Below are positions 5,176 to 56,836 of a DNA stretch of 64,000 bases, piece by piece. The stretch covers positions 1 through 64,000 of the forward strand of contig JADZAF010000223.1 in the NCBI GenBank assembly GCA_020852755.1, read 5' to 3'. Each line of letters begins with the position of its first letter. Within the stretch, counting starts at the first letter, position 1. Source of the DNA: Bryobacterales bacterium. Its GTDB lineage: Bacteria > Acidobacteriota > Terriglobia > Bryobacterales > Bryobacteraceae. The position numbers and the translations under genes are program-made. The notes under the pieces are model-generated. The model was not told where the DNA came from, did not search any database, and saw nothing but the letters and a program-made list of their open reading frames with translations.

Positions 5176-5601
5176 TTAACATGAATGGTATTGCATGACA
5201 ACCGCGTCCTCGGCCGGGTTCCGGTAGTACCCGGGCCTGCGGCCGGCGGGCCGAAAGCCCAGGCTGTGGTAGAAGAGGCGGGCTTCGGAATTCGACTCGC
5301 GGACCTCGAGGAAGACGCTCGCCGGACGCTCCCGCAGCAGGGCCGAAATCAGCGCCCGGCCCACGCCTTTTCTTCGCCGCCCGGGGGCCACGGCCAGGTT
5401 CAGTATTTCGAATTCGCCGGCGGCCACCTGGCGCGCCGCCAGAAAGCCGGCGACCTGGCCCGCCTCCACGGCTACCCGGCAATCGTAATCGAGATAGTCC
5501 GAAACAGGCCACTGCGAAGCCGCGGGCGAGACTTGTTGAATCCATTCGATGGCGGGCAGGTCGGCCGTACCGGCGGCGCGCACTGCGATCGCTTCCGTCA
5601 T
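5176..5601 (-). CDS. rimI: Ribosomal protein bS18-alanine N-acetyltransferase-like GNAT enzyme
   Basis: A 141-residue GNAT-fold acetyltransferase. The acetyl-CoA pyrophosphate loop is seen as GRRRKGVGRAL (about residues 74-84), preceded by the ILNLAVAP strand. The RimI-type VRESNSEARLFYHSLGF and the late YYRNPAEDAVVM motif follow. RimI acetylates the N-terminal alanine of ribosomal protein S18. The gene lies four bases downstream of the DUF218 gene and is probably cotranscribed with it. Other GNAT substrates are possible, but the full motif set favours RimI. Confidence 0.85.
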   Translation of the reverse strand: MTEAIAVRAAGTADLPAIEWIQQVSPAASQWPVSDYLDYDCRVAVEAGQVAGFLAARQVAAGEFEILNLAVAPGRRRKGVGRALISALLRERPASVFLEVRESNSEARLFYHSLGFRPAGRRPGYYRNPAEDAVVMQYHSC

Positions 5602-5605
5602 CGAG

Positions 5606-6193
5606 TCACACCGGAACGCCGATAGACCACAGCAGGTAGCCCACCGACTGGCGGAGGTAGAGCCACCAGGCGCGCAGATCCGCGGGGGCCTCGGAAGGCC
5701 GCGGCGATCCGTACACCCTCAGCCCGCGCGACTCCAGCAGCTTCTTGACCCGGTAGATGTGATATCCGTCGCTGACCACGATGCAGCTGCGCATGCCCAT
5801 GCGGTTCATGATCTCGAAGGCGGCCGTCAGGCTGTGCACCGTGCTGGACCCCTCCGGTTCCACCAGGATGGCTTCCGAGGGCACTCCGCGCAGGATCAGG
5901 TAGGCGCGGCCTACGTCACCTTCGGTGAAGTGCGGATCGCCTCCCGCGCCCCCGGTGGTGAGGATGTGCGCCGCCAGTCCCTTGCGGTACAGACTGAGCG
6001 CGTGGTCCAGGCGCGCCTTGAATACCGGCGAGGGACGGCCGCTGTATTCCGCGGCGCCCAGTACGACGATCACGTCGGCGCGGTGCGCTTCGTCGTGAGT
6101 GGACTGGCGCTTGATCCGCAGCGAGATCACCAGCAGATAGCCGGCCAGCACCAGCCCGGAAACCGTTCCCAGCGCCACAAGGGTGCGTTTCAT
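5606..6193 (-). CDS. DUF218/YdcF-family membrane-anchored protein
   Basis: A 195-residue protein with an N-terminal membrane helix (residues 5-25) and a DUF218 domain. Recognisable motifs are ADVIVVLGAAEY, ILTTGGAGGD, the SSTVHSLTAAFEIM helix and IVVSDGYHIYRVKKL. Relatives include YdcF, SanA and ElyC, linked to envelope or cell-wall homeostasis; the exact reaction is not known. It is the first gene of a minus-strand group with rimI and is divergent from the trmH-like gene, sharing an intergenic space of only 32 bases. Confidence 0.8.
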   Translation of the reverse strand: MKRTLVALGTVSGLVLAGYLLVISLRIKRQSTHDEAHRADVIVVLGAAEYSGRPSPVFKARLDHALSLYRKGLAAHILTTGGAGGDPHFTEGDVGRAYLILRGVPSEAILVEPEGSSTVHSLTAAFEIMNRMGMRSCIVVSDGYHIYRVKKLLESRGLRVYGSPRPSEAPADLRAWWLYLRQSVGYLLWSIGVPV

Positions 6194-6225
6194 CTGCGCT
6201 ATCCTGATCGTGACATATTTTAGCG

Positions 6226-7029
6226 GTGAGCAAAGTGGAACATCTGAGCAGTCCCGCCAACCCGCTGCTGAAGGATGTCCGCCGTGCCATCGTACGGGGC
6301 AGCCTGACCGAGGAAGGTTACTGGGTGGCCGAAAGCTTCCACCTGCTGGAAGAGGCGCTGCGCAGCGACCTGCGGGTGGGCGCGGTGCTGGCGGCGGAAT
6401 CGGTCCATTCGGCCGTGGAGAGCCACGTGCGGCGGCTCTCGGGGGTTCGCCTGGCGGTGCTGAACGATACGCTATTCCAGCGCCTGGCGGGCACGGAATC
6501 CACGCAGGGGGTGATCGCGCTGGTGCGCCCGCAGCAGTGGGCCCTGCAACAACTGTTTCGCGGGCGCGCCCTGGTGGTGGTTCTGGACGGACTGCAGGAT
6601 CCCGGCAATGCCGGCGCCATCGCCCGTTCCGCGGAAGCCTTCGGGGCCAGCGGCCTGCTGTTCCTGAAAGGCACCGTTACACCCTTCCATCCGAAGACGC
6701 TGCGCGCCTCGGCCGGCTCCCTGTTCCGGGTCCCCTTTGTGTACGGCCTGGATGCCGCTCTGGCCCGGGCCGCCCTGCAGCAGAACCGGCTGGATCTGTA
6801 CGCGACCGTTCCGCGCTGCGGACCCTCCTCCAAGCTGTTGGGCGACGTGGACCTGACCCGCAAGTGCGGCGTTATCATCGGCAGCGAGGCGCGGGGCGTG
6901 AGCGAGGCGCTGCGCCCGGCCGCGATGAACTTGAGTATCGCTACCGCCGGGGTCGAATCGTTGAACGCCGCGGTGGCCGCCGCCATCATTCTCTATGAGG
7001 CGCGCCGCCAGAGGTGTCTGAAGGCATGA
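6226..7029 (+). CDS. TrmH/SpoU-family RNA 2'-O-methyltransferase
   Basis: A 267-residue SPOUT-class enzyme. An N-terminal substrate-binding region (residues 1-100) precedes the knotted domain, which shows all three SpoU motifs: NAGAIARSAEAFGA (motif 1), IIGSEARGVSEAL (motif 2) and ESLNAAVAAAIILYE (motif 3). These bind S-adenosylmethionine and methylate a ribose 2'-hydroxyl in rRNA or tRNA. The domain layout resembles RlmB/TsnR, but the target RNA cannot be assigned. The GTG start at 6226 has no ribosome site and follows CATATTTT closely, so a leaderless mRNA is possible. Its stop overlaps the rarA start (ATGA). Confidence 0.85.
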   Translation: MSKVEHLSSPANPLLKDVRRAIVRGSLTEEGYWVAESFHLLEEALRSDLRVGAVLAAESVHSAVESHVRRLSGVRLAVLNDTLFQRLAGTESTQGVIALVRPQQWALQQLFRGRALVVVLDGLQDPGNAGAIARSAEAFGASGLLFLKGTVTPFHPKTLRASAGSLFRVPFVYGLDAALARAALQQNRLDLYATVPRCGPSSKLLGDVDLTRKCGVIIGSEARGVSEALRPAAMNLSIATAGVESLNAAVAAAIILYEARRQRCLKA

Positions 7030-8348
7030 GCCTGTTCGATACCAGCCTGCCGGAGCCGGAACGGGTGGACAAGGGCCGGCCGCTGGCCGACCGCATGCGG
7101 CCGGAAAGCCTGAGCGAGTTCGCGGGCCAGGAGCACATCCTGGCGCCCGGCAAGCCGCTGCGGGCCCAGATCGACCGGGACGAACTGGCCTCCATGATTT
7201 TCTGGGGCCCGCCCGGAGTGGGCAAGACCTCGCTGGCCCGCCTCATCGCGCGGCTGACCCGCTGCGAGTTCATCCCCTTCAGCGCGGTGCTGAGCGGCAT
7301 CAAGGAGATCAAGGCGGTCATGGCCGACGCCGAGCGGTTGCGGCGCCTCGGCCGGCGCACGATTCTGTTCATTGACGAGATCCACCGCTTCAACAAGGCG
7401 CAGCAGGACGCTTTCCTGCCTTACGTGGAGCGCGGCGACATCATCCTGATCGGAGCGACGACGGAGAACCCGTCTTTCGAAGTCATCTCCGCTCTGCTTT
7501 CCCGTGCCAAGGTCTACGCCCTGCGCCTGCTGGCGGTTGAGGAGATCGTGGGGTTGCTGAAGCGCGCGCTGGGCGACCGCGAACGCGGTCTGGGCGAACT
7601 GGAGATCGAAACGCCGGACGAGCTGCTGGAGCAGATCGCCATCTATGCCAGCGGCGATGCCCGCACGGCCTACAACACGCTGGAGGCTGCCGCGGCCGCA
7701 GCCCTGCCTGGAAAGCGGCTCACCCCGGAAGCGGTCGAGGATGCCATCCAGCGCAAGGTGCTGCTCTACGACAAGAGCGGGGAAGAGCATTTCAACCTGA
7801 TCTCGGCGCTGCACAAGTCGGTGCGGTCGAGCGATGTGGACGCGGCGCTGTACTGGCTGACGCGCATGCTGGAGGCCGGCGAGGACCGGCTGTACATCGC
7901 GCGGCGCCTGGTGCGCATGGCCATCGAGGACATCAGCCTGGCCGATCCGCGCGCGCTCGAGCAGGCCGTGGCGGCCATGCAGGCCGTGCATTTCCTGGGC
8001 ATTCCCGAGGGCGACCTGGCCCTGGCTCAGGCCGTCATCTACCTCTCCGTGGCCCCCAAGTCCGACGCGGCCTACCGGGCCATGGGCCGGCTCAGGCAGG
8101 TGGTGCAGGCCAGCGTGGCTGAGCCCGTGCCGATGCACCTGCGGAACGCTCCCACCCGTCTGATGAAGCAGATGGGCTACGGTGAGGGCTACAGGCACGC
8201 GCACGATTTTCAGGATGCCCTTACCGACATGGAGTGCCTGCCGCCTTCCCAGGCCGGACAGCGCTTCTACCATCCTTCGGACCGCGGTCTGGAGAAGCGT
8301 ATCGCCGAGCGGCTGGAGGAAATCCGGCGGGCCCGGCGAAAAGGGTAG
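7026..8348 (+). CDS. rarA: Replication-associated recombination protein A, AAA+ ATPase
   Basis: A 440-residue RarA/MgsA/WRNIP1-family ATPase acting at stalled replication forks. The Walker A motif GPPGVGKTS is at residues 61-69 and Walker B is in ILFIDEIHRF. Sensor-1 (GATTENPSFE) and the family C-terminal region (ALHKSVRSSDVDAALYWL, then YRHAHDF and FYHPSDRG) follow. ATG 7026 is preferred over an in-frame ATG twelve bases upstream because it forms an ATGA overlap with the preceding methyltransferase gene, implying translational coupling. Length is normal. Confidence 0.93.
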   Translation: MSLFDTSLPEPERVDKGRPLADRMRPESLSEFAGQEHILAPGKPLRAQIDRDELASMIFWGPPGVGKTSLARLIARLTRCEFIPFSAVLSGIKEIKAVMADAERLRRLGRRTILFIDEIHRFNKAQQDAFLPYVERGDIILIGATTENPSFEVISALLSRAKVYALRLLAVEEIVGLLKRALGDRERGLGELEIETPDELLEQIAIYASGDARTAYNTLEAAAAAALPGKRLTPEAVEDAIQRKVLLYDKSGEEHFNLISALHKSVRSSDVDAALYWLTRMLEAGEDRLYIARRLVRMAIEDISLADPRALEQAVAAMQAVHFLGIPEGDLALAQAVIYLSVAPKSDAAYRAMGRLRQVVQASVAEPVPMHLRNAPTRLMKQMGYGEGYRHAHDFQDALTDMECLPPSQAGQRFYHPSDRGLEKRIAERLEEIRRARRKG

Positions 8349-8435
8349 ACGCGCCTCAATCCCACCTTGGACTCCGATTTGCGCCGGTCCCCAACTCTGT
8401 GTTACATCTGGTCTTAATCACGAAGTAGGGATCCC

Positions 8436-9131
8436 ATGCCTGACGAGCAGAAACCCGAGGGGATCGTTCCGCCTTCCGCCGAACCCCCAAAACCGGCGGC
8501 TGAAGCTTCACCTTCCTCCCCATCGCCCGGCTCGCCCCCGCCAACCCCGCCGAAACCTGCCGCAGGCCCGGCGGCCAAGCCCCCGGCGGCGGCCAAGCAT
8601 GCTCCGCCCAAAGCGCCGGCGGTTATGGCTAGCGTGCCGTGGGAGGACGAGCTGACGAAGCGCTTGCAGGATCAGTTCGGCGACAGGATCCTGGAGTTCT
8701 CCACTTACCTGGGCCAGAACTTCCTGGTGGCCAGGCCGGAAGCCGTGATCCCCATCATCGAGCACCTGAAGCTGGAAGCCGGTTTCGATTACCTGGTGGA
8801 CGTCACCGCCGTGGATTATCCCCAGCGGCCGGAGCGGTTCGATCTCGTCTATATCCTCTACAGCTTTTCGCGCAACGAGCGCGTCCGGATCAAGACCCGG
8901 ATCGCGGAGGGCGCCACTCCGCCGAGTGCGACCGGAGTGCACCTGACGGCCAACTGGCTGGAGCGCGAGGTGTACGACATGTTCGGCATCCGCTTCGCGG
9001 GCCATCCGAACATGCAGCGGATTCTGCTGCCGGAGGAGTGGCAGGGCCACCCGCTGCGCAAAGACTATCCCATCACCCGGCAGGACGATCGCTGGGTCCA
9101 GGAGAACCTGGGCATCGAGAGCGCCCAGTAA
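8436..9131 (+). CDS. nuoC: NADH-quinone oxidoreductase subunit C with Pro/Ala-rich N-terminal extension
   Basis: A 231-residue subunit of the peripheral arm of respiratory complex I. Residues 1-64 are a low-complexity extension rich in Pro, Ala and Lys, and the conserved 30-kDa domain begins near residue 68. Diagnostic segments are [13 protein letters not shown], the [13 protein letters not shown] motif and the closing GHPLRKDYP. It opens a nine-gene operon; the preceding gene is rarA, so nuoA and nuoB are not next to it. An AGGGA stretch before ATG 8436 may serve as ribosome site. The extension is unusual for NuoC. Confidence 0.95.
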
Positions 9132-43995: not shown

Positions 43996-46900
43996 TTGAC
44001 ACCAAAATCCGAGTCATTCCTGCGGGCAGTACCAATCGCTGTTCTCCTGCTTGCCCTCGTCATTCCCCTTGCCGCTCAGGAAACCACCGGCACCATTCGC
44101 GGTGATGTTACCGACCCCTCCGGAGCGGTAGTTCCGGGCGCCACGGTGGAAATCAGCGGCCCGGCGTTAATGCGCAACCAGACAGTAACAACCGACAGCG
44201 CCGGAAACTTTACGTTCAGTACCCTGCCTCCCGGCACATACGAAGTGACCGTCAACGCCCGGGGCTTCTCCGCGGCCAAGCGCGTCAATATCGAACTTCA
44301 GGTGGGCAAAGTCCTCCGTCTCGACTTCCGCCTCGAGGTGGGCGGTACTTCCGAAACCGTGGTTGTCATGGGAGAGGCGGCCATCGTGGACGTGTCCCAA
44401 AGCACGGTTATGGCCAACGTGAGCGCGGCGTCCATCGACCGGCTGCCGAAAGGCCGCGGTTTCGATACCCTGATCGCCCTCGCGCCCGGCGCCCGCTATG
44501 AAGACAAGACCGGCGGCTACCAGGTGGACGGCGCCAGCGGATCGGAAAACATCTTCCTGATCGACGGTATGGACCTGACCAGCGTCTACAGCGGTGCGCT
44601 GAACAAGTCCGGCAATATCCCGTTCGAATTCGTTCAGGAACTCCAGGTGAAATCGAGCGGCTTCGAGGCTCAGTACGGCGGCGCCATGGGCGGCGTCATC
44701 AACGTCGTCACCAAGAGCGGCGGCAACAACGGTTACCACGGAGACGTGGGCCTCTTCCTGCGGACGGACTCCATGCAGGCCCGGCCGCGCGCCACCCTCT
44801 CCATCGACCCCGAAGACGACACCAAGGGCTACTACCAGCAGAACGAGGTGGACGCCTACCGGTATCTCAGCCCGGGCTTCACGCTGGGCGGGCCGGTTCT
44901 GAAGGACAGGATCTGGTTCTTCGCCGGCTACTATCCGGAACTGACCAAGTACGAACGGGAGGTTACTTTCCTTTCCAACGACGCCACCTCCACTTTTGAC
45001 CGCAAGGAACGCCGCGACTATCTGAACGGCAAACTCGACTTTGCGCCCTTCAGCAAGCTGCGCGTGTATGGCGGCTACATCTATTCGCCCTACCGCGTCA
45101 ACGGCAACCTGCCCGCCCGCAACGGCTCGAGCGATCCGAATCTGCCCTGGGCCGACAGGGGCTCCCGGTCCCCCGCCGCCTCCTATACCTTCGGCGGCGA
45201 TTACATGGCCACCTCCAAGCTGGTGCTGAGCGTTCGGGGCGGCTACAACTACACCAATTACAAGGACTACGGTGTGGCCCGCGGCGTATCGGTGTACCAG
45301 AACGTGAACAGCGCCTACCCCGTGCCCGCTCAGTGGAAGCAGACTTACGTCGGCTATACACCCGGCTACGGATCGAATCCCTACCAGCAGCGCGACATCC
45401 AGACGCGTTTTCGCACCAGCGCCGATGTTTCCTACATCTTCAACGCGGGCGGCCAGCACACCCTGAAGAGCGGGTGGGAGACCAACCAGCTGCACATGGA
45501 TCCGTTCTACGGCTCCTGGCCGGACGGCTACATCCGGTTTTACTGGGGAGCCACCTATACCGGCCAGGCGGCCCGGGCAGGCGAGAAGATGAAAGGGCAG
45601 TACGGCTATATCAGGCACTACCTGTACGGGGAATCCGGCGAGGCGTCCAGCGACAACCACGCCCTGTTCATCCAGGACTCCTGGCAGATCCACAAGCGGC
45701 TGACCTTGCAGTTGGGTTTGCGCACGGAGCGGGAGTTCGTCCCCTCCTTCGCCGTCGGCCAGAACATCCCGTCGAAGGCGATCGAGTTCGGTTTCGGCCA
45801 GAAACTGGCTCCGCGGGTCGGATTCGCCCTCGACGTGAAGGGCGACGGGCGCTGGAAGGTGGCCGGCTCCTTCGGCCTCTTCTACGACCTGATGAAGTAC
45901 TCCCTGCCGCAGGGCAGTTTCGGGGGCGCCATCTACCAGATGTGGTTCTACCCCCTGGACAACCCCGACCCCGCCTTCTACCTCTCGAAACTCCAGCGCG
46001 ATGCCGACGGCCTTGCCCTGGTCGCGCCGCTCAAGGACCTGCAGTTGTTTGAGCACGTGGACTGGCGCATCCCGTCCAACGATCCCAACGACAACACCAT
46101 CGACCCGGACCTGAAACCGATGCGCCGCCGGGTGTGGGACTTCAGCACGGAATACGCCCTGACTCCCAGCCTGGCTCTGAGCGCGCGCTTCACCCACAAC
46201 TCGGTGGACCGAGTGATCGAGGACGTGGGCACGCTTTCGGATGCCGGCGAGAAGTACTACATTTCCAACCCCGGTTTCGGCATTACGGCCGATCCCAAGA
46301 CCTGGGGAACGGGCTTTCCGGTGACTCCCAAGGCCAAGCGCAACTACGACGCGCTGGAAGTGCGCGCCGAGAAGCGCTTCTCGCGCAACTACCACTTCTC
46401 CGCCAGCTACACCTTGAGCCGCCTGTGGGGCAACTACTCCGGCCTGGCGTCGTCCGATGAACTGACCGACGGCGTGGGCCGGCAGGATCCCAACGCCAGC
46501 CGCTATTTCGACTTGCCCTGGATGTCCTATGACTCGCACGGCAGGCTCGTCGAGGGCCGGCTGGCCACCGACCGCCCGCACGCTTTCAAGTTCTTCGGCT
46601 CCTATACCTGGAAGAACAAGCTCGGCCAGACCAACTTCGGCCCGAGTTTCATGGTCATGTCCGGCACGCCGCTGACCAGCGAGGTGGCGGTGATCTCCAG
46701 CACCCCGGTCTACGTCGACGGCCGCGGCGACCTGGGCCGCACTCCGGTCTACTCGCAGACGGACTTCCTGGTTTATCACGAAGTGCCCCTGCCCAACAGC
46801 GAAACCCGCAAGATCCGGCTCGAAGCCAACATCTCGAACCTCTTCAACCAGTCCACGGTCCTGGCCCGGTCCACCAACCTGGTGCACCCGGACTACGGCG

Positions 46901-47070
46901 AGCACCTGTCGTTTGAGCCCCAGGAGAGTTTCTTCAAGGGCTTCGACTACCAGCAAATGCTGAACGCGGGCTACGCGGACGGTTCCCTGACCCGGAATCC
47001 CTACTTCAACTGGGCCAGCCAGTTCCAGGGTCCGCGCTACATCCGTCTCGGTTTCAAGTTCGTTTTCTAG
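43996..47070 (+). CDS. Oar-like TonB-dependent receptor with carboxypeptidase-regulatory domain
   Basis: A 1024-residue paralogue of the preceding receptor with the same layout: signal peptide (VPIAVLLLALVIPLAAQ), CarboxypepD_reg-like domain (DPSGAVVPGATVEIS ... GTYEVTVNARGFS), plug (ENIFLIDGMDLTSVY, GFEAQYGGAMGGVINVVTKSGG) and barrel ending YIRLGFKFVF. The start is TTG at 43996, supported by AGGAG eight bases upstream; no ATG or GTG gives a full signal peptide. It has its own promoter and terminator, so it is not an operon with the first receptor. The plugs are alike but the barrels differ, suggesting different ligands. Confidence 0.92.
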   Translation: MTPKSESFLRAVPIAVLLLALVIPLAAQETTGTIRGDVTDPSGAVVPGATVEISGPALMRNQTVTTDSAGNFTFSTLPPGTYEVTVNARGFSAAKRVNIELQVGKVLRLDFRLEVGGTSETVVVMGEAAIVDVSQSTVMANVSAASIDRLPKGRGFDTLIALAPGARYEDKTGGYQVDGASGSENIFLIDGMDLTSVYSGALNKSGNIPFEFVQELQVKSSGFEAQYGGAMGGVINVVTKSGGNNGYHGDVGLFLRTDSMQARPRATLSIDPEDDTKGYYQQNEVDAYRYLSPGFTLGGPVLKDRIWFFAGYYPELTKYEREVTFLSNDATSTFDRKERRDYLNGKLDFAPFSKLRVYGGYIYSPYRVNGNLPARNGSSDPNLPWADRGSRSPAASYTFGGDYMATSKLVLSVRGGYNYTNYKDYGVARGVSVYQNVNSAYPVPAQWKQTYVGYTPGYGSNPYQQRDIQTRFRTSADVSYIFNAGGQHTLKSGWETNQLHMDPFYGSWPDGYIRFYWGATYTGQAARAGEKMKGQYGYIRHYLYGESGEASSDNHALFIQDSWQIHKRLTLQLGLRTEREFVPSFAVGQNIPSKAIEFGFGQKLAPRVGFALDVKGDGRWKVAGSFGLFYDLMKYSLPQGSFGGAIYQMWFYPLDNPDPAFYLSKLQRDADGLALVAPLKDLQLFEHVDWRIPSNDPNDNTIDPDLKPMRRRVWDFSTEYALTPSLALSARFTHNSVDRVIEDVGTLSDAGEKYYISNPGFGITADPKTWGTGFPVTPKAKRNYDALEVRAEKRFSRNYHFSASYTLSRLWGNYSGLASSDELTDGVGRQDPNASRYFDLPWMSYDSHGRLVEGRLATDRPHAFKFFGSYTWKNKLGQTNFGPSFMVMSGTPLTSEVAVISSTPVYVDGRGDLGRTPVYSQTDFLVYHEVPLPNSETRKIRLEANISNLFNQSTVLARSTNLVHPDYGEHLSFEPQESFFKGFDYQQMLNAGYADGSLTRNPYFNWASQFQGPRYIRLGFKFVF

Positions 47071-47958: not shown

Positions 47959-48366
47959 TCAGGACTGGCTTGCCCGCGCGGCCTTCTCCTGCACCCTGGC
48001 TCCGAAGCGGGCGGTGTTCACGACGAACCGCTGGTGGGTTCCTTCCGCCACCTTCTCCACTTCGTCGAAAGCTTCCACTTTGAAGTTGATTCTGCGGTCC
48101 TCGACGGAAACGACCTCGGCGCGAAGCCGCACGTTCATCCCCACCGGAGTTGCGGCCAGGTGATGGACGTCGACGTGGGTGCCCACGGTGTCGAAGCCGC
48201 TTTCCAGCATAGGCAGGGCTAAATTGCGCGCGGTCATTTCCAGGTAGCCGATGAGCCAGGGCGTTCCCAGGACCCGGGCCGATTCCACGCCCATGAAGTC
48301 GACGGCAACCTCGCTGGTCACCAGCAACTGCTCTTCGCGCGCGCTTCCCACGGGGATGTTCGCCAT
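47959..48366 (-). CDS. FlK-like hotdog-fold thioesterase
   Basis: A 135-residue hotdog-fold protein resembling fluoroacetyl-CoA thioesterase-type enzymes: VAVDFMGVESARVLGTPWLIGYLEMTARNLA, then VGTHVDVHHLAATPVGMNV with the conserved His and a closing EGTHQRFVVNTARF. These remove small acyl groups from CoA; the natural substrate is unknown. ATG 48366 is chosen because TACAAT ends exactly seven bases upstream and no ribosome site is present. It converges on the methyltransferase gene, 14 bases away. Confidence 0.85.
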   Translation of the reverse strand: MANIPVGSAREEQLLVTSEVAVDFMGVESARVLGTPWLIGYLEMTARNLALPMLESGFDTVGTHVDVHHLAATPVGMNVRLRAEVVSVEDRRINFKVEAFDEVEKVAEGTHQRFVVNTARFGARVQEKAARASQS

Positions 48367-48371
48367 GCGAA

Positions 48372-48587
48372 CTATTGTAGGGCAGAGCCGCCCGGGGGCG
48401 TGGGACCGTAATGTCCGGCCTTGCGCTTCGCCCACTCCACCAGGCGCCGGATGGGGTGGTAATACTCGGCCAGAATCAGCAGGCCGGGGATCAGGAAGAC
48501 CCAGCCCGGCATGATGGGCAGAATCAGACCTGTAAGTCCCAGGAGGGTCAGAAAGAGGCCAGTTACTACCCGAACCGGTTTTCGCAA
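48372..48587 (-). CDS. Small membrane protein of the PGPGW family
   Basis: A 71-residue protein with two helices (about residues 6-24 and 28-42) joined by the signature ILPIMPGWVFLIPGLLILAEYY, as in putative PGPGW transmembrane proteins. The C-terminal part is basic (RRLVEWAKRKAGHY). A TTG start at 48587 fits the family N-terminus; AGGA lies three bases before it, and TAAAAT six bases before it. Function unknown. Its stop codon lies within the region that holds the promoter for the thioesterase gene. Confidence 0.7.
   Translation of the reverse strand: MRKPVRVVTGLFLTLLGLTGLILPIMPGWVFLIPGLLILAEYYHPIRRLVEWAKRKAGHYGPTPPGGSALQ
48374..48379 (-). promoter_or_regulatory. -10 box for a leaderless thioesterase mRNA
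   Basis: TACAAT on the minus strand ends seven bases before ATG 48366. It sits at the very end of the upstream small membrane protein gene. Confidence 0.45.
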
Positions 48588-48996: not shown

Positions 48997-51900
48997 TTAT
49001 TTGAAGCGCTTCTTGTACAGAAAATCCAATCCGACCAGACCGTTCTCCTCCCGTAGCGCCACCACCGACCACTCCCGGTTGACCGCCCATTCCACGCGCA
49101 CGATCTGGTAGTTACTTCGTGACAGGTTAGTGATGTAAGTGAAGGTAATGTCACGGGTAATCTGCTGCTCCAGGGTCAGGCGCGCCTGGGGGTTATTTTC
49201 CACACCCGAGATGCTGGGGTCGATCTTCAGGCGGCTGACTCCGAAGAAGCGCTGCAGCCGTCCGGCGATGGGATTGGCGATGGCCGAGCCCAGCAGGCTG
49301 GAAGCGCCCATCTGCTGCCAGGTCTGAGGCTGCAGGTTCTGGCGGGCCACCAGCGCGGGGTCGGAAGTCGGAGTCCGGCCGGTGGCCAGCAGCGCCACTA
49401 CCTCCGAGAACTGCAGCGGAGGGTCCGAGCGGTGGGTCAGATTCAGGCGGTTGATAGGCCCCGACACGTTCAGGATGATGTTCACACCCCGGGCGCGGGT
49501 CTCCAGGTCGATGTTCAACACCGGCTCGATCTTCACCGGGTTGTAGAAGTTGATGGAGCCCTGCTGGATATCGTAGGAGGTGCCGAAAAAGAGAATCTCG
49601 CCCTGGGTGATGTTGACGCGGCCCTGCAGCGAGGGGTTGGTGCCGGTCCCCCGCAGGCGCAGGTTGGCCTCGGCTTGCAGGTCGCGGGCCAGCGCCGTCT
49701 GCAGTTGCAGACCGGCGGCGGTTTGCATGCTCACGTCGAAGCGCAGCCCCGCCAGGAAGCCCCTGCGGGCCGCCGGGGTGCGCACTGGTTCGGCGGTCTG
49801 CACCAGAATGGTTCCGAAGTCCGAGCGGGGCTGGAAAACCGTGCGGGTGATGGTGACCGTGCCGGTCAGGGTGCTGCGCTCGGTGGTGCCGGTCAACACC
49901 AGGTTGGCGTTGGCTGTTGTGCTGAGCCCCTCCGGATAGCGGATACGCACCTCGGCGGCCTCGGTCTGGAGACGGAATACCATGGTCGGGCCGCCATAGG
50001 CCGCAAAACCGCTCACCGTCACCTTGCCGCCCCCGCTCTCCGCCTGCAACTGCTGTATGGTGGCCTGGGAGCCGTCGAAAAGGATCACCCCGTTCGCGTT
50101 GGAGATGCCGGTGGGAAAATCGGGCAGGTTCACGGAGGCGTCCTTCAGCTCCAGGCGCCCGCCAATCAGAGGCGACGACCAGGCGCCGCGCACCGTTGCC
50201 GCCAGCCCCACATTGCCGTCGGCGAACACTTCCGGGTAGAAATCCTGCACGATGTTCAGGCTGGCCTGCCCTTTGATCTTGAGGTCGAGCGGGTTCTTCT
50301 GCTGCAGGGCGATGGCCCCGCTCATCTCGAGTTGCGTCTGCGGGCCGATCAGCCTGGCGCGTTTGACGCGAATGGCCGATCCCTCCAGGGCCAGGACGAT
50401 GGAACCGTCGTTCCGCAAAGTGGTGCGCGCCAGCCTGTTCCCCGGCCCCTCGGCTCCCGGGCCCGCCTCGAAGCGGCTGACTTCCAGCAGGCTCTGCAGC
50501 TTCTCCGGCCGGAAGGCGGGGCCATGGACAGTGAGCACCCCCTGGGCGATGGCGTCGAAACCGGCGCGCGGCGCCGCCTTAACCCGCAGCCACTGGCGAA
50601 CCGCGGAGTACCGTACCTGGGAAAATTCCACTTTGGCGTCCACCGGATAGTCGCCGGACAGGCGCCAGGTTCCCTGGCCCCGTAGGGTGGACCGTGCAAA
50701 GTCGGAATCCAGGGTGAAGTTCAGAACCCCTGCCTGGGTCTCGGACACCAACGTCAGGTCGCCGAAAGCCATTTCGTTCAAGGTGACCTTGCGCGCTTTC
50801 ACGCTGCCGTCCAGGCCGGTCAACCGGACCACGGGACCGGCCCCGGCCGCGCCCACGCCGGCGGTTCCCTGCGCTGCGACCTGGAGCACGCCCGCCACTC
50901 CCGGCCATCGCCGCATCAGCGGGGGAAACTTGGCCATCTCGATGGGGTTGCTGTTGAGGCGGAACTGCAGGCGGCCATTCCGGAGATTGCCGGCTGCGTG
51001 CGTGTAGGTGGCGGCCAGGTCCAGCCGGGCCGGGCCGGACTGAACGCGCAGTTCGGGAACTTCGAGCGTGCTGCCGGCATACGCCGCCTTTCCCTCGATG
51101 CGGTCGAACGGCTCCTCGAAGAGGGTCCCCTTTTCCACGGAAAAACCGGCGGCCGCTCGCGGGCTGCCGTAAGTGCCCGCGGCGGTCAGCGTAGCGGCGG
51201 CGGTGCCGCTGAAACCGCTTCCGGCATACCCGGCCAGCGCAGCCAGCTCCGCCAGCCCCGCATTTCGGAACGATGCCGTGCCCGTCAGCGGCGAGTCCGG
51301 CTGCGGCCTCCAGTTCCGGAGACCCAGGCTGGCGGCCAGTTGAACCTGCAACTGGCCCCGTGTCAAAAGGGCGTCCTGAACGCTCAGGCCCGCCGGAGTG
51401 GCGTGAACCGAGGCCGTCAAGCGGTCGAACTGGCGTCCCTCGAGGGCAAAATCCGTGATTACGATGCGCCCGTCCACGACCGGCGATTCGAACCGTCCCG
51501 AGAGCGCTCCCTCGAACGTCGCCGTGCCTCCCCGCAGGCTCACGGGCAGAGCGGCGGGAGCGCCGGGCGAAATGGACCGCAAGAGCGGCAGCAGGTCGTT
51601 CAAGTCGGTGGACGCCAGGCGAACGTCGATCCGCCGGCCCAGGGAACCGGAAACATCCACACGGGTGTGAGGCAGGGAGAGGTGCGTGGAAGAAATCTCC
51701 ACGGTTTCCCGCCGCGAATCGTAGTCCACCTTCACCCGCCCCGAGACGGGGAGCGGGCCGGTTCCGGGAGTTACCCCTACGTCCGCCCGCACCACGAACT
51801 CATTTTTCCCGCGCCCTTTCAGGTTGGCCTCGAAGTGAACCGGCCCGGAGACCTGGCCGCTCCAGTTTCGGCTCTTTTCCCCGGCGCCGGCGGCGCTCAG

Positions 51901-53229
51901 CAGGGCTTCCAGCTGCATGCTGTCTACCTGCCCGTCCACCCGTAGGGTGGCCATGCGCTCGAGCACGGCCTGGCCGGTGAAAGCCCCGTCGAAGGCGGAG
52001 GCACGCAGCCCGTCGAGCTCGATCCGGCCCGGCCGGACCTCCAGCTTCGAGGTGGCCGACAGGCCGCTGAACCGGCGTCCATCCTGGGTCACCGAGACGT
52101 CCCGCGCGGCCAGCTTGCCTTCCACGGTGTATTCTTTCGTTCCGTCGAATCGGGCCGTCCCCCCCACCTGCACAAGGCCTTCGGGCCGGCCCTCCAGCCT
52201 CAGCAGGCGGCCGAGTTCGTTCAGCGCCACCCGGGCATTGAACTCCAAGGTCCCGGACGGGCCGCTGAAGTCCCGGATCATGCCCGAGGCCTCCAGGTTT
52301 GAAGCGCCGAATCCCAGCCGCGCACTCGCCACCCGCCACTGCTCGTCCGCCAGGTTGAGGTGAATCTCGGCTTCGAGCGGCGGCGCCGCCTGCGGATGGA
52401 AAGGCAGCTGCAGCCGCAGCGGCCGCGCGAATTCGTCCAGCGCAAGGCGGGCGTTCGCCCGCCACGAACCGCGGGGCGCTTTCATGTTCTCGATCGCGCC
52501 GGAAACTACGATGGTTGACCGGGCGGATTCGAAACGCGCCTGGTTCACCTCGATGCGGTCCTGGTCGATCACCACCGGAAGCGCGGCTCTGAGCCCCAAC
52601 GGGAGTTCGGCGCCGCGGTCCAGGTACAGTGGGGCAAAAGCAACCTCGCCCCGATAGAGAGTCTGGACAGGATCGTAGGAAAGCTGCGCGCGCAGATTCT
52701 CGCCCCGCGCGTGAAATGGCGTGCGGCGCGAATCGAAAACCACCAGGCCGTCGTTGACATTGAACCGGCGCACGGCCAGGTCCACGATGGTTTCCAGCGC
52801 GGTCCTGTCCCGCTGCCGTTTGATCTTCGGCTCCGGGATGTTGGTGCGGCCGTCCGCGAAGACCAGGATGTTGGCCTGGGGCTGCTCCACATCCAGGCCG
52901 GCGAGGTCGACGGCGCGCTTGAATACCGAGACGATCTTCAACTCCACGCGGATCTGGCGGGCGCGAAACAGCGGCGCGCTGCCGGCCGGCTCCAGGCCGT
53001 GGATCACGAAGCCGTCGATTGTGGCCCTCAGGAACCGCCAGTCGAAATCGAAAGACCCGATCTCCGCGCGGCCGCCGGTGGCCGTCTCGACCTCGCGCAC
53101 GATACGGCTGCGGACCAACTGGCGGAACCAGTCCGTCTGGGCGATCACGAAAGCGGAGACCACCAGCAGGAGAACCAGGCCCAGGAGCGATCCGGCCGCG
53201 ATCAGGGCGATCTTTCTCCCGCGGCTCAT
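48997..53229 (-). CDS. tamB: TamB-like translocation/assembly protein
   Basis: A protein of 1410 residues with one N-terminal inner-membrane helix (residues 5-28) and a very long beta-rich, repetitive middle, as in TamB and other bridge-like lipid-transfer proteins. The C-terminal DUF490/TamB domain is seen in GTILVQTAEPVRTP, FFGTSYDIQQGSINFYNP and the last 60 residues (ITRDITFTYITNL ... NGLVGLDFLYKKRFK). It would span the periplasm between the two membranes. ATG 53229 overlaps the stop of the SurA-like gene (ATGA) and has GGAGG upstream. It is the third gene of a coupled trio with the Omp85 gene, as expected for a TAM-type system. Confidence 0.88.
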   Translation of the reverse strand: MSRGRKIALIAAGSLLGLVLLLVVSAFVIAQTDWFRQLVRSRIVREVETATGGRAEIGSFDFDWRFLRATIDGFVIHGLEPAGSAPLFRARQIRVELKIVSVFKRAVDLAGLDVEQPQANILVFADGRTNIPEPKIKRQRDRTALETIVDLAVRRFNVNDGLVVFDSRRTPFHARGENLRAQLSYDPVQTLYRGEVAFAPLYLDRGAELPLGLRAALPVVIDQDRIEVNQARFESARSTIVVSGAIENMKAPRGSWRANARLALDEFARPLRLQLPFHPQAAPPLEAEIHLNLADEQWRVASARLGFGASNLEASGMIRDFSGPSGTLEFNARVALNELGRLLRLEGRPEGLVQVGGTARFDGTKEYTVEGKLAARDVSVTQDGRRFSGLSATSKLEVRPGRIELDGLRASAFDGAFTGQAVLERMATLRVDGQVDSMQLEALLSAAGAGEKSRNWSGQVSGPVHFEANLKGRGKNEFVVRADVGVTPGTGPLPVSGRVKVDYDSRRETVEISSTHLSLPHTRVDVSGSLGRRIDVRLASTDLNDLLPLLRSISPGAPAALPVSLRGGTATFEGALSGRFESPVVDGRIVITDFALEGRQFDRLTASVHATPAGLSVQDALLTRGQLQVQLAASLGLRNWRPQPDSPLTGTASFRNAGLAELAALAGYAGSGFSGTAAATLTAAGTYGSPRAAAGFSVEKGTLFEEPFDRIEGKAAYAGSTLEVPELRVQSGPARLDLAATYTHAAGNLRNGRLQFRLNSNPIEMAKFPPLMRRWPGVAGVLQVAAQGTAGVGAAGAGPVVRLTGLDGSVKARKVTLNEMAFGDLTLVSETQAGVLNFTLDSDFARSTLRGQGTWRLSGDYPVDAKVEFSQVRYSAVRQWLRVKAAPRAGFDAIAQGVLTVHGPAFRPEKLQSLLEVSRFEAGPGAEGPGNRLARTTLRNDGSIVLALEGSAIRVKRARLIGPQTQLEMSGAIALQQKNPLDLKIKGQASLNIVQDFYPEVFADGNVGLAATVRGAWSSPLIGGRLELKDASVNLPDFPTGISNANGVILFDGSQATIQQLQAESGGGKVTVSGFAAYGGPTMVFRLQTEAAEVRIRYPEGLSTTANANLVLTGTTERSTLTGTVTITRTVFQPRSDFGTILVQTAEPVRTPAARRGFLAGLRFDVSMQTAAGLQLQTALARDLQAEANLRLRGTGTNPSLQGRVNITQGEILFFGTSYDIQQGSINFYNPVKIEPVLNIDLETRARGVNIILNVSGPINRLNLTHRSDPPLQFSEVVALLATGRTPTSDPALVARQNLQPQTWQQMGASSLLGSAIANPIAGRLQRFFGVSRLKIDPSISGVENNPQARLTLEQQITRDITFTYITNLSRSNYQIVRVEWAVNREWSVVALREENGLVGLDFLYKKRFK

Positions 53230-53867
53230 CGGAAGACCTCCTTTCGGTATTCGAGACGGGTCCGCTCGCGCGCGTTCCTGAGCCACTGGTCCAGGTACTG
53301 ATCCAGGCGGCGCTGCACCAGTTCTTCTTCCACCTGCGCCCGGCGGTCCTCGGCGCTGACCGGACGGGTGGGCGTGTTGGCAGCCAGGGGATTGCGGCGG
53401 GCCAGCTCCTCCTCGATCTCCTCCTCCGGGATCTGGATTCCGGGCCGGAACCGCATTTCAATGAACCGCAGGGCAGTCAACTGCCAGAACAAGTGCGCTT
53501 TCAAGTCGGCTTCGCTGATTTGGTATTCCTCAAGCGCTTTCTGATACCCGGCTTGATCGGAAAAGCGGGTCTTCCGGACGTCCTCGAGCAGGCGGTCGGC
53601 CCCGGCCGGCTCCGGCCCGGGGTAGCGGTTCAGCTCCATCTCCCGGCGGATGAGTCTTTGCTCCACCAGCCGGTCGGCGGCCTTGCGCTTCGTCTCCGGG
53701 CTGAAGTCCAGCTTGTCCCCGTTGAGGAAGGCGGTCAGCCGCAGCTCGCGCTCGATCTCGCTGGCCGTGATCACGCTGGTCCCCACCACCACCGCAATGC
53801 GGTCGATGATCTCCCCGCGAGAGGCCGCGAGGGCCAGGGGCAGCAGCAGGGCGAGGCGGAGCGTCAT
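53226..53867 (-). CDS. SurA_N-like periplasmic chaperone without a PPIase domain
   Basis: A 213-residue exported protein with a signal peptide (MTLRLALLLPLALAASRG). It has the SurA N-terminal motif IIDRIAVVVGTSVITASEIERELRL, followed by a helical body with LVEQRLIRREMELNRYPGP. SurA chaperones outer-membrane proteins to the Bam complex and usually has one or two parvulin domains; none is present here. The gene starts inside the Omp85 stop (TGATG) and ends inside the tamB start (ATGA). That points to a dedicated chaperone for an assembly system encoded together. Confidence 0.82.
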   Translation of the reverse strand: MTLRLALLLPLALAASRGEIIDRIAVVVGTSVITASEIERELRLTAFLNGDKLDFSPETKRKAADRLVEQRLIRREMELNRYPGPEPAGADRLLEDVRKTRFSDQAGYQKALEEYQISEADLKAHLFWQLTALRFIEMRFRPGIQIPEEEIEEELARRNPLAANTPTRPVSAEDRRAQVEEELVQRRLDQYLDQWLRNARERTRLEYRKEVFR

Positions 53868-56836
53868 CAGAAGGTCTGTCCTATGGAGAAGAAGAACTGG
53901 AAGTGGCTGATGCGCCGCCGGGTGCTCTCGCAAGCGGTCGGCGAGCCGACCGGGCCGCAGCGGATCAGCTCGGCCAGGTCGCCCTCAAAGCCGAAGTAGC
54001 GGGGCGGGTTGATGCTGTAGGCGAGGTCGACGCGAACCGGGCCCACCGGCGTCCGGTAGCGGATGCCGAAGCCCACCGCGTGCACCATGTAGTTGTGATC
54101 CTGCTCGTCGCGCTGTTTGAAGCGGAAGGAGATGTCGCCCGGCTTCGAGTAAACGTTGCCGGCGTCATGGAACAGCACCGCCCCGATGTTCTCACCGATG
54201 AACGGGAAGCGCAGCTCGGTCTGGTGAAAGAGCTGGGCGTTGCCGCCCAGAGGAAAGCCGGTGATGGCCTCCCGGGGGCCTGCCTGGTTTTCCGGAAAGC
54301 CGCGGTGCGAGTTGGCGCCGCCGGCGAAAAACCGCTCCGGAAAGGGGATCGCCTCGGACGGATCGGTGATGTCCCGGGGAAGCCGGAAGGGGAAGATGAA
54401 ACCCAGCGAAAGTTCGCGCGCCAGCACCATCCTTTTCCCGATGCGGTGATAGGTGGCGTTGCGGCCCAGGCCGCGGGAGAAGCTGCGCTGCGAACCGAAA
54501 TAGCGCCAGGCCAGCCCCAGGTCCAGCGTGTTGTATATGCCCCGGTGCGGGTCGGCGGGGTCGTCGCGCCGGTCCTGAATGAGACTGCCGGAGAACATGC
54601 CGATACGGGCGGGCTGCGCCAGCAGCGGCACCAGCAGCGGCTGGATCACCAGGTTCGACACGCTGGCCCGCCGGTAGCTGAAGCGGAACAGCGCGGTAGT
54701 CGGCTTGGAAAGCCTTTCCGAAAGCTGAACCGAGACCTCCTGCCGGCGGGAGGTGAAGGTGCGGACGTCGCGCGAATGGTCGTACAGGGCGGTGAAGGAG
54801 AGGTCGCGGCCCTCGACGTTGCGGTAGCGGGGCGCCGAGTAGTTGATCAGGCCGCGGCGCTGCAGGGTGGAGAGGCGGCTGCGGAAGCTGATGGAGTGGC
54901 CCACGCCCCACAGGTTCAGACGCGAGACATCGAAGGAGACGCGCGGGCTGAATCCGGTGTCCCCGCCGGGCGACTGAAGGCAGTCGCGGCAGCCGCCGAT
55001 GCGGGCCAGCTCCGCTCCCAGCCCGCCGGTGATGGAATAGCGGCTGGCCTCCTCCATCTCGTAGAGCACGTACTTCCGCGGTGTAAAGCCCTCCGGATTC
55101 TGGACGGCCATGTCGACCTTGGCGAAGACCCCCAGGTCGTATAAGCGGTGCTGCGTATCCGCCATCCGCAGGGGGGAGAGCGGGTCTCCGGGGTTGACAA
55201 ACAGGTTCTTGTTCACCAGGCTCGGCCGGGTGGTCTCGAGGCCGCCGTAGAGCACCTGCCGCACCAACTGCCGGTTTCCCTCCCGGATCGCAAACCGCAG
55301 GTTCACCTCGTGGTCTCCTGCCGCGGGCGAGGAGTTCCACTCGAAGGTGGCATCCGGGAATCCCTGCGAGTAGTAGTAGGCCAGCAGGGTGTCGCGGTCC
55401 GAAGCCACATTGAACTCGCTGAACGGCTGCCCGGCGGTGGAGCTGAGGGTCTGGACGAGCGACTTGGCCCCTTCCTGTTCGATGCCGCTCACATCCAGAC
55501 TGGCCACCCGCCACTGGGGCCCCTCCTGGATCTCGAACGCCACCGCGATCTGTTCCGACTGGCCCTGGTAGTTGCTGATCACCGTGGTGCTCACCTGCAC
55601 GTCCCGAAAGCCGTTGGAGCGATACAGGTTGGCTATGGTCTCCTCGTCCTGGCGCCGGTAGCTCTCGCTGTAGCGCCCGCGCCGGAACTGCAGGAACGAG
55701 GCCGGCGTCAGGTACATGCGCTCGCGAAGCGTCTCGGTATCGAAATAGCGGTTGCCCTTGAACTCTATGTGTGTCAGCTTGTGCCGCCGGCCGGGATTGA
55801 TCAGAAAGTCGATGGTTGCCCGGTCCCGGTTCCCGATCCGCTGTTCCTTGAAAACCACCTCGGCATGGTAGTAGCCTTCGCCCTGGAGGTAATTGCGCAG
55901 GTTCCGGGCGCCCTCCACCAGCAGGTCGCGGTCCACGGTCCCTTCCACGTAAATGGGGACGTATTGCCGCAGGCGCTTGTCCGAGATCTTGGCGCCGAAT
56001 GTGCGCAACTCCACTTGGGGTCCCGCGTCGATCTCCAGGCTGTGCCGGACCCGCCGGGAGTCGCGGTCGAAATTCACGGAGGTCAGCCGCACCTTGGCCA
56101 TCAGGCGGTCCTGTTTCTGGTACATCTGGCGGATACCGTACAGGCCGCGCTGCACCCGGGACTGCGTTACCGGCTTCCAGGTCCCGATCAGAAACCGGCG
56201 CCACTTCGTGGCCGAGATGATCTTCTCCGGCGGCACCTTCAGGTCGCCTGCAATGACGGGAGGGGCGAAGCGGGCGCGCTTGCCGCTGTCGATTTCGAAG
56301 CGCAGATGCACCTGCTGGTGAGCCTGGTCATAGTAAAAACGAGGCTGGATGCTGCTCTCGTAATAACCGTTCGCCTCCAAAAGGTTCCTGGCGCCCTCGA
56401 CGCCCTGCTGGGCCTTTTCGTCGGAATAGGGCTGGCCGAGCTCCAGCCGCGTGGCATTGGAGAGCTGGCCCGGGTTGGGAGGTTCCGAAACATTCCCTTC
56501 CACCGACACCCGGCCGATAAACCAACTGGGGGTCGTGTAGAACTTCACCGCCACCCCTCCATTGGCCGGTTCCGCGCCCACCTGGATGTCTTCATAGCGC
56601 CCGGTGGCGAACAGGCGGTCGATGGCGGCGCGCACGTCGGTCATGTGCAGGGGCTGGTCCTTCCGGAACGGCAGGATTTCGTACAATTCGGCCGGTTCCA
56701 GGGGCTGGTCGGGCGGCTCAAACTGGATCGTGACGATACGCTTGCCCTCGTAATCTTCGGCGGCGGCGAACAGTCGAAACCACGCCGGAACGCACAGCAG
56801 GCACAGCCAAGCCCCGAGACGACGCACCACCCTCAT
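53867..56836 (-). CDS. Omp85-family outer-membrane assembly protein with about seven POTRA-like repeats
   Basis: A 989-residue protein with a signal-like N-terminus (residues 1-26), a periplasmic part of about 570 residues and a C-terminal barrel. The periplasmic part divides into seven POTRA-like repeats of 72-87 residues, near 33-104, 107-185, 188-273, 275-349, 353-439, 442-520 and 523-596. The barrel starts near residue 600 and contains FFAGGANSHRGFPE, the counterpart of the VRGF/Y lid motif with His instead of the aliphatic residue. It ends IGQTF, an aromatic beta-signal. Usual numbers are five repeats (BamA) or three (TamA). Coupling to surA-like and tamB genes supports a TAM-like role; a second BamA is expected elsewhere. 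Confidence 0.9.
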   Translation of the reverse strand: MRVVRRLGAWLCLLCVPAWFRLFAAAEDYEGKRIVTIQFEPPDQPLEPAELYEILPFRKDQPLHMTDVRAAIDRLFATGRYEDIQVGAEPANGGVAVKFYTTPSWFIGRVSVEGNVSEPPNPGQLSNATRLELGQPYSDEKAQQGVEGARNLLEANGYYESSIQPRFYYDQAHQQVHLRFEIDSGKRARFAPPVIAGDLKVPPEKIISATKWRRFLIGTWKPVTQSRVQRGLYGIRQMYQKQDRLMAKVRLTSVNFDRDSRRVRHSLEIDAGPQVELRTFGAKISDKRLRQYVPIYVEGTVDRDLLVEGARNLRNYLQGEGYYHAEVVFKEQRIGNRDRATIDFLINPGRRHKLTHIEFKGNRYFDTETLRERMYLTPASFLQFRRGRYSESYRRQDEETIANLYRSNGFRDVQVSTTVISNYQGQSEQIAVAFEIQEGPQWRVASLDVSGIEQEGAKSLVQTLSSTAGQPFSEFNVASDRDTLLAYYYSQGFPDATFEWNSSPAAGDHEVNLRFAIREGNRQLVRQVLYGGLETTRPSLVNKNLFVNPGDPLSPLRMADTQHRLYDLGVFAKVDMAVQNPEGFTPRKYVLYEMEEASRYSITGGLGAELARIGGCRDCLQSPGGDTGFSPRVSFDVSRLNLWGVGHSISFRSRLSTLQRRGLINYSAPRYRNVEGRDLSFTALYDHSRDVRTFTSRRQEVSVQLSERLSKPTTALFRFSYRRASVSNLVIQPLLVPLLAQPARIGMFSGSLIQDRRDDPADPHRGIYNTLDLGLAWRYFGSQRSFSRGLGRNATYHRIGKRMVLARELSLGFIFPFRLPRDITDPSEAIPFPERFFAGGANSHRGFPENQAGPREAITGFPLGGNAQLFHQTELRFPFIGENIGAVLFHDAGNVYSKPGDISFRFKQRDEQDHNYMVHAVGFGIRYRTPVGPVRVDLAYSINPPRYFGFEGDLAELIRCGPVGSPTACESTRRRISHFQFFFSIGQTF

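Follow-up and report, generated by a model that had tools for sequence, protein, structure and literature searches.

The minus strand of the DNA stretch analysed here (the window, 64,000 nucleotides), from a Bryobacterales-type soil acidobacterium, carries three genes with overlapping ends that encode a BamA-type Omp85 insertase with seven POTRAs, a natural SurA Core without PPIase domains and a TamB. In the ORF listing they run at 48997-56836 in the order omp85, SurA-like gene, tamB; the same set recurs across the Acidobacteriota in two gene orders, and at other loci of this genome and of the phylum TamB and an Omp85 are joined in a single reading frame. A unit of chaperone, bridge and insertase is the natural reading, and we consider it probable that the operon specifies a TAM-type trans-envelope assembly built from a TamB bridge, a duplicated seven-POTRA BamA and a docked SurA-core chaperone.

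The coordinates of the trio and its TGATG and ATGA overlaps, as given in a first-pass annotation, proved correct on reading the window sequence (Table 1). The best start of the SurA-like gene is the ATG at 53867, and for tamB the ATG at 53229 is preferred over an upstream GTG, which yields a 1429-aa ORF. Relatives share these tight junctions: the ATGA overlap between the SurA-like gene and tamB is the rule (35/46 measured), and a gap of -4 to +3 nt between the Omp85 and SurA-like genes is common (32/43). Promoter and terminator scans gave nothing useful. Downstream of tamB, the product of 47959-48435 (minus strand) matches, at E 1.6e-34, the family of fluoroacetyl-CoA thioesterases (FlK). The gene at 43996-47070 (plus strand) specifies a large outer-membrane barrel protein whose N-terminus carries a carboxypeptidase-regulatory-like domain and which weakly matches a TonB plug; proteins of this type might be clients of outer-membrane assembly.

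Table 1. Features of the operon and of the single-chain fusions; positions are those of the window unless a locus is named.
Feature	Position	Strand	Description and evidence
omp85	53867..56836	-	989 aa, seven-POTRA BamA-type insertase; ORF, PF01103 and six PF07244 stretches, TIGR03303, AF2 model
POTRA1 (aa 33-103)	56528..56740	-	AF2 secondary structure
POTRA2 (aa 106-183)	56288..56521	-	AF2
POTRA3 (aa 194-270)	56027..56257	-	AF2
POTRA4 (aa 274-347)	55796..56017	-	AF2
POTRA5 (aa 353-437)	55526..55780	-	AF2
POTRA6 (aa 443-518)	55283..55510	-	AF2
POTRA7 (aa 524-596)	55049..55267	-	AF2
16-strand Omp85 barrel (aa 600-989)	53870..55039	-	AF2; Foldseek top matches BamA
Lid-loop HRGF motif (aa 844-847)	54296..54307	-	sequence
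TGATG stop/start overlap, omp85 to surA-core	53865..53869	-	sequence ...TTCTGATGACG
surA-core-like gene	53226..53867	-	213 aa, signal peptide, without PPIase; profile, AF2, Foldseek
SurA N-domain equivalent (aa 22-157)	53397..53804	-	profile search, hhalign
SurA C-terminal helix and strand equivalent (aa 172-208)	53244..53354	-	profile search, AF2
ATGA start/stop overlap, surA-core to tamB	53226..53229	-	sequence ...TTCCGATGAGC
tamB	48997..53229	-	1410 aa, signal-anchor-like N-terminal helix, AsmA/DUF748-like N-terminal region; PF04357, PF05359
TamB C-terminal domain (PF04357)	49003..50052	-	Pfam
Single-chain TamB-Omp85 fusions	L020:8938-13507, also L100-L105, L250-L266	minus (L020)	2,000-2,450 aa when complete

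The omp85 product has a Sec signal-like N-terminus. Pfam recognised six POTRA stretches above threshold and one Omp85 barrel; an AlphaFold2 (AF2) model built from an alignment of 44 orthologues (A1) contains seven beta-alpha-alpha-beta-beta units between residues 33 and 596, followed by 16 barrel strands, with a pLDDT of 88.5. The "about seven" POTRA-like repeats that had been annotated are thus exactly seven, and structure prediction, the check set for that count, rules out three or five. Foldseek placed E. coli BamA chains as the top matches of the model, and the sequence passes the NCBIfam BamA equivalog TIGR03303 (326.6 bits against a cut-off of 297.15) and fails the NCBIfam TamA model (76 bits against 625). 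With seven POTRAs the protein is neither a TamA, which has three, nor a canonical BamA, which has five and a locus with Skp; as a second BamA with seven POTRAs adjoining TamB, it fits the acidobacterial TamB-associated duplicate type of Heinz et al. 2015 (PMC4494059). The lid motif, annotated as HRGF rather than VRGF, turned out not to be diagnostic: 21/44 orthologues have HRGF and the others vary (NRGF, LRGF, DRAF, HRAF and more), so we dropped it as a special marker.

This Omp85 is not alone in its genome, which also holds a canonical BamA beside a Skp-type gene (L019:7526-11193), two PPIase-bearing SurA relatives and a second TamB-Omp85 system, described below. Their coexistence makes the earlier description of the trio as "self-contained" doubtful, and too strong as worded. 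A quick maximum-likelihood tree joins the canonical BamAs with E. coli BamA and sets all the TamB-associated Omp85s apart from them (SH-aLRT 94-97); E. coli TamA sits on a long branch and its placement is unsure. The genome further contains an open frame of 507 aa (L021, G000:C252) that has three POTRA matches and no Omp85 barrel match.

Judged by sequence comparison and modelling, the middle protein is a natural SurA Core: an N-domain with the C-terminal segment joined straight to it, at the position that the PPIase domains occupy in SurA. The profile built from 47 orthologues (A2) matched the SurA N-domain at E 3.5e-11 and nothing over the PPIase domains; its columns 176-208 align weakly (5 bits) to the C-terminus of SurA, and that segment is present in the AF2 model (pLDDT 93.6). 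Agreement among this profile, hhalign against E. coli SurA (94% probability), the missing rotamase matches and the structural searches carries the assignment; the best solved Foldseek matches were SurA cores in BAM-SurA complexes (9hg9_F, E 8.2e-05, TM 0.64/0.71; probability 1.00). Taken singly, the window sequence falls below the Pfam cut-off for the SurA N-terminal domain; up to 27/47 orthologues match SurA_N-type families, and a rotamase/PPIase family match was found in 0/47. A rotamase search of the window's own genome likewise did not return the gene. These results bear out the first-pass annotation, which had described a SurA-like protein without a PPIase domain. The gene is not a chance ORF, being conserved in 47 relatives and in the 77 of 80 named loci described below, nor is it a piece of a full SurA split by a frameshift, since the orthologues all measure 179-232 aa and lack a PPIase domain.

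The third protein has the C-terminal domain (PF04357, E 8.4e-42, over the full length of the model), the hydrophobic N-terminal stretch and the long repetitive middle of a TamB, together with a PF05359 match (E 2.6e-16); it stays below the cut-off of the narrower NCBIfam TamB equivalog (72 against 825). Its N-terminal part matches DUF748, YhdP and AsmA models, and E. coli TamB has been reported as a phospholipid carrier (PMC12800296). Both observations favour a reading in which the operon would serve mainly phospholipid transport, with TamB as an AsmA-like conduit, the Omp85 as its port and the SurA core either just helping the Omp85 to fold or acting as a co-translated general chaperone. We think this unlikely, as it leaves unexplained why it is a SurA Core, and not Skp or no chaperone at all, that has been kept beside the Omp85 in two gene orders, and the canonical BamA has a Skp-type neighbour of its own.

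Conservation of the gene order in the Acidobacteriota had been proposed as a check; the gene set proved conserved, in two orders. Relatives of the window Omp85 were present in 61/61 genomes of a first survey; the SurA-like gene adjoins Omp85 in all 47 loci fetched, and TamB lies downstream in 46 of them, the exception being L086. At L076, about 3.5 kb (5337 to 8887) separate the SurA-core gene from tamB. The order Omp85-SurA-core-TamB was found in 77/80 named Acidobacteriota loci, mainly from Bryobacterales, Acidobacteriaceae and Acidiferrales; at the three exceptions the sequence ends within 1.6 kb after Omp85, and wherever at least 2.5 kb of room was available (68/68) all three genes were present in this order. 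Many of the surveyed genomes are metagenome assemblies with short contigs. In other classes of the phylum, 18 unfused loci showed TamB upstream of Omp85 in 16 cases and the SurA core behind Omp85 in 15. That the set is kept despite the changed order is an argument for the genes being linked in function and not just through a common transcript. The SurA-core gene is absent at L237, at L248, at L249 (an additional Omp85-TamB copy, carried by a genome of the same class) and at four fusion loci with seven POTRAs (L244, L245, L267, L268); not every TamB-Omp85 pair, therefore, requires it. Two public metagenome records, L137 ("Bordetella parapertussis") and L184 ("Betaproteobacteria bacterium"), carry the acidobacterial operon, and their organism names therefore look wrong.

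The second TamB-Omp85 system of the window's own genome (L020, on G000:C338) occupies one reading frame, which is cut by the contig end; complete frames in six relatives encode 2082-2285 aa, in which Pfam finds TamB, then POTRAs, then the Omp85 barrel. Matches to the Omp85 half of the fusion at E 1e-60 or better occur in 77/396 Acidobacteriota genomes, and 54 of those 77 (54/396) have an open frame of at least 1,900 aa, a count made by frame length, with unfetched frames judged on length alone. The 28 fusion frames that we fetched and checked come from many families and hold both parts in one frame, ruling out assembly error. By sequence, the fusion begins with what resembles an inner-membrane anchor and ends in the outer-membrane barrel. 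In L244, L245, L267 and L268, TamB is fused to a seven-POTRA Omp85 (frames of 2,403-2,446 aa), and no SurA-core gene was found beside these four; because they form a tree group of their own (SH-aLRT 100), the quick tree suggests that the fusion arose at least twice. Most fusions retain the last strand of TamB, and POTRA1 begins about 10-25 residues later; the linkers between TamB and POTRA1 are longer in the seven-POTRA fusions.

These data also bear on the idea that the operon is one of convenience, that is, three translationally coupled envelope genes working separately, with the SurA core a free chaperone serving the canonical BAM. Genes are often grouped by pathway in operons, and in E. 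coli SurA cores work as free chaperones; yet the gene set outlasts the change of order between classes, Omp85 and TamB have repeatedly been fused in frame, and PPIase-bearing SurA relatives are on hand for general use. We hold this explanation to be highly improbable.

We favour the TAM-type unit because the seven POTRAs and BamA-type barrel, the identity of the SurA core, the conserved gene set and the in-frame fusions in two lineages all support it; against it stand the PPIase-bearing SurA relatives of the genome, which could deliver clients, and the orthologous loci without a SurA-core gene. In the TAM of E. coli, TamB makes contact with all three POTRAs of TamA, and the last TamB strand is able to pair with strand 1 of the barrel (PMC12800296). 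In the window's system, TamB, anchored in the inner membrane, would form a long groove of beta structure across the periplasm, and its C-terminal domain would bind the duplicated seven-POTRA BamA paralogue at the POTRAs and at the edge of the barrel. SurA Core alone has a similar affinity for BAM, engages BamA POTRA-1 and complements the membrane sensitivity of surA (PMC11366764); in the same manner, the SurA core of the operon would most likely dock on the membrane-distal POTRAs, hold unfolded beta-barrel or autotransporter-like clients and pass them to the barrel. With the extra POTRAs, TamB and the SurA core would each have a docking place of their own, and a seven-POTRA arm could hold both. 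A stricter version, which we offer tentatively, is that the SurA Core, docked on the extra POTRAs, serves as an integral subunit in fixed stoichiometry, making one fixed trans-envelope channel, and that the phylum also makes the bridge and the insertase as a single polypeptide set in both membranes.

The TAM-type unit suggests a TAM with a dedicated chaperone of its own. A natural SurA cut down to its Core bears on the purpose of the PPIase domains, and natural TamB-Omp85 fusions fix a 1:1 stoichiometry; the 10-25 residues between the last TamB strand and POTRA1 in most fusions set a length limit on the TamA-TamB hybrid-barrel model, which becomes testable in one protein.

The insertase-bridge pair is already known, seven POTRAs included: Heinz et al. 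2015 (PMC4494059) described a second acidobacterial BamA that shares an operon with TamB and in some cases has seven POTRAs, and they put this BamA forward as the origin of the TAM, so neither the main pair nor the POTRA number is new. The words SurA, chaperone, fusion and fused are absent from the main text of that paper, and the open-access papers that we searched contained no report of a SurA gene in a BamA-TamB operon or of a TamB-Omp85 fusion; the conserved PPIase-less mini-chaperone and the single-chain bridge-insertase were thus not found in that literature. The operon described here shares with that of Heinz et al. the phylum, a second BamA adjoining TamB and, in some cases, seven POTRAs, and differs in its conserved PPIase-less SurA gene and in TamB switching side between classes. 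As in E. coli TAM, where tamA and tamB overlap by 4 nt, the genes for the Omp85 barrel and TamB are overlapping or adjacent, whereas TamA has three POTRAs to the window protein's seven and its operon no SurA gene. The hybrid BAM-TAM of Borrelia (PMC13382580) resembles the window's system in that the partner of TamB is a BamA, not a TamA; it differs in using a single canonical five-POTRA BamA with BamB and BamD, and the Borrelia paper mentions SurA once only. The spirochaete order, TamB-BamA (PMC4494059), is the reverse of that in the window. Finally, the window's middle protein and the E. coli SurA Core share the N-domain, the C-terminal segment and the predicted fold; in E. coli, however, SurA without its parvulin domains is an engineered deletion, whereas here it is encoded naturally, by a gene of its own (about 213 aa) that lies within an Omp85-TamB operon.
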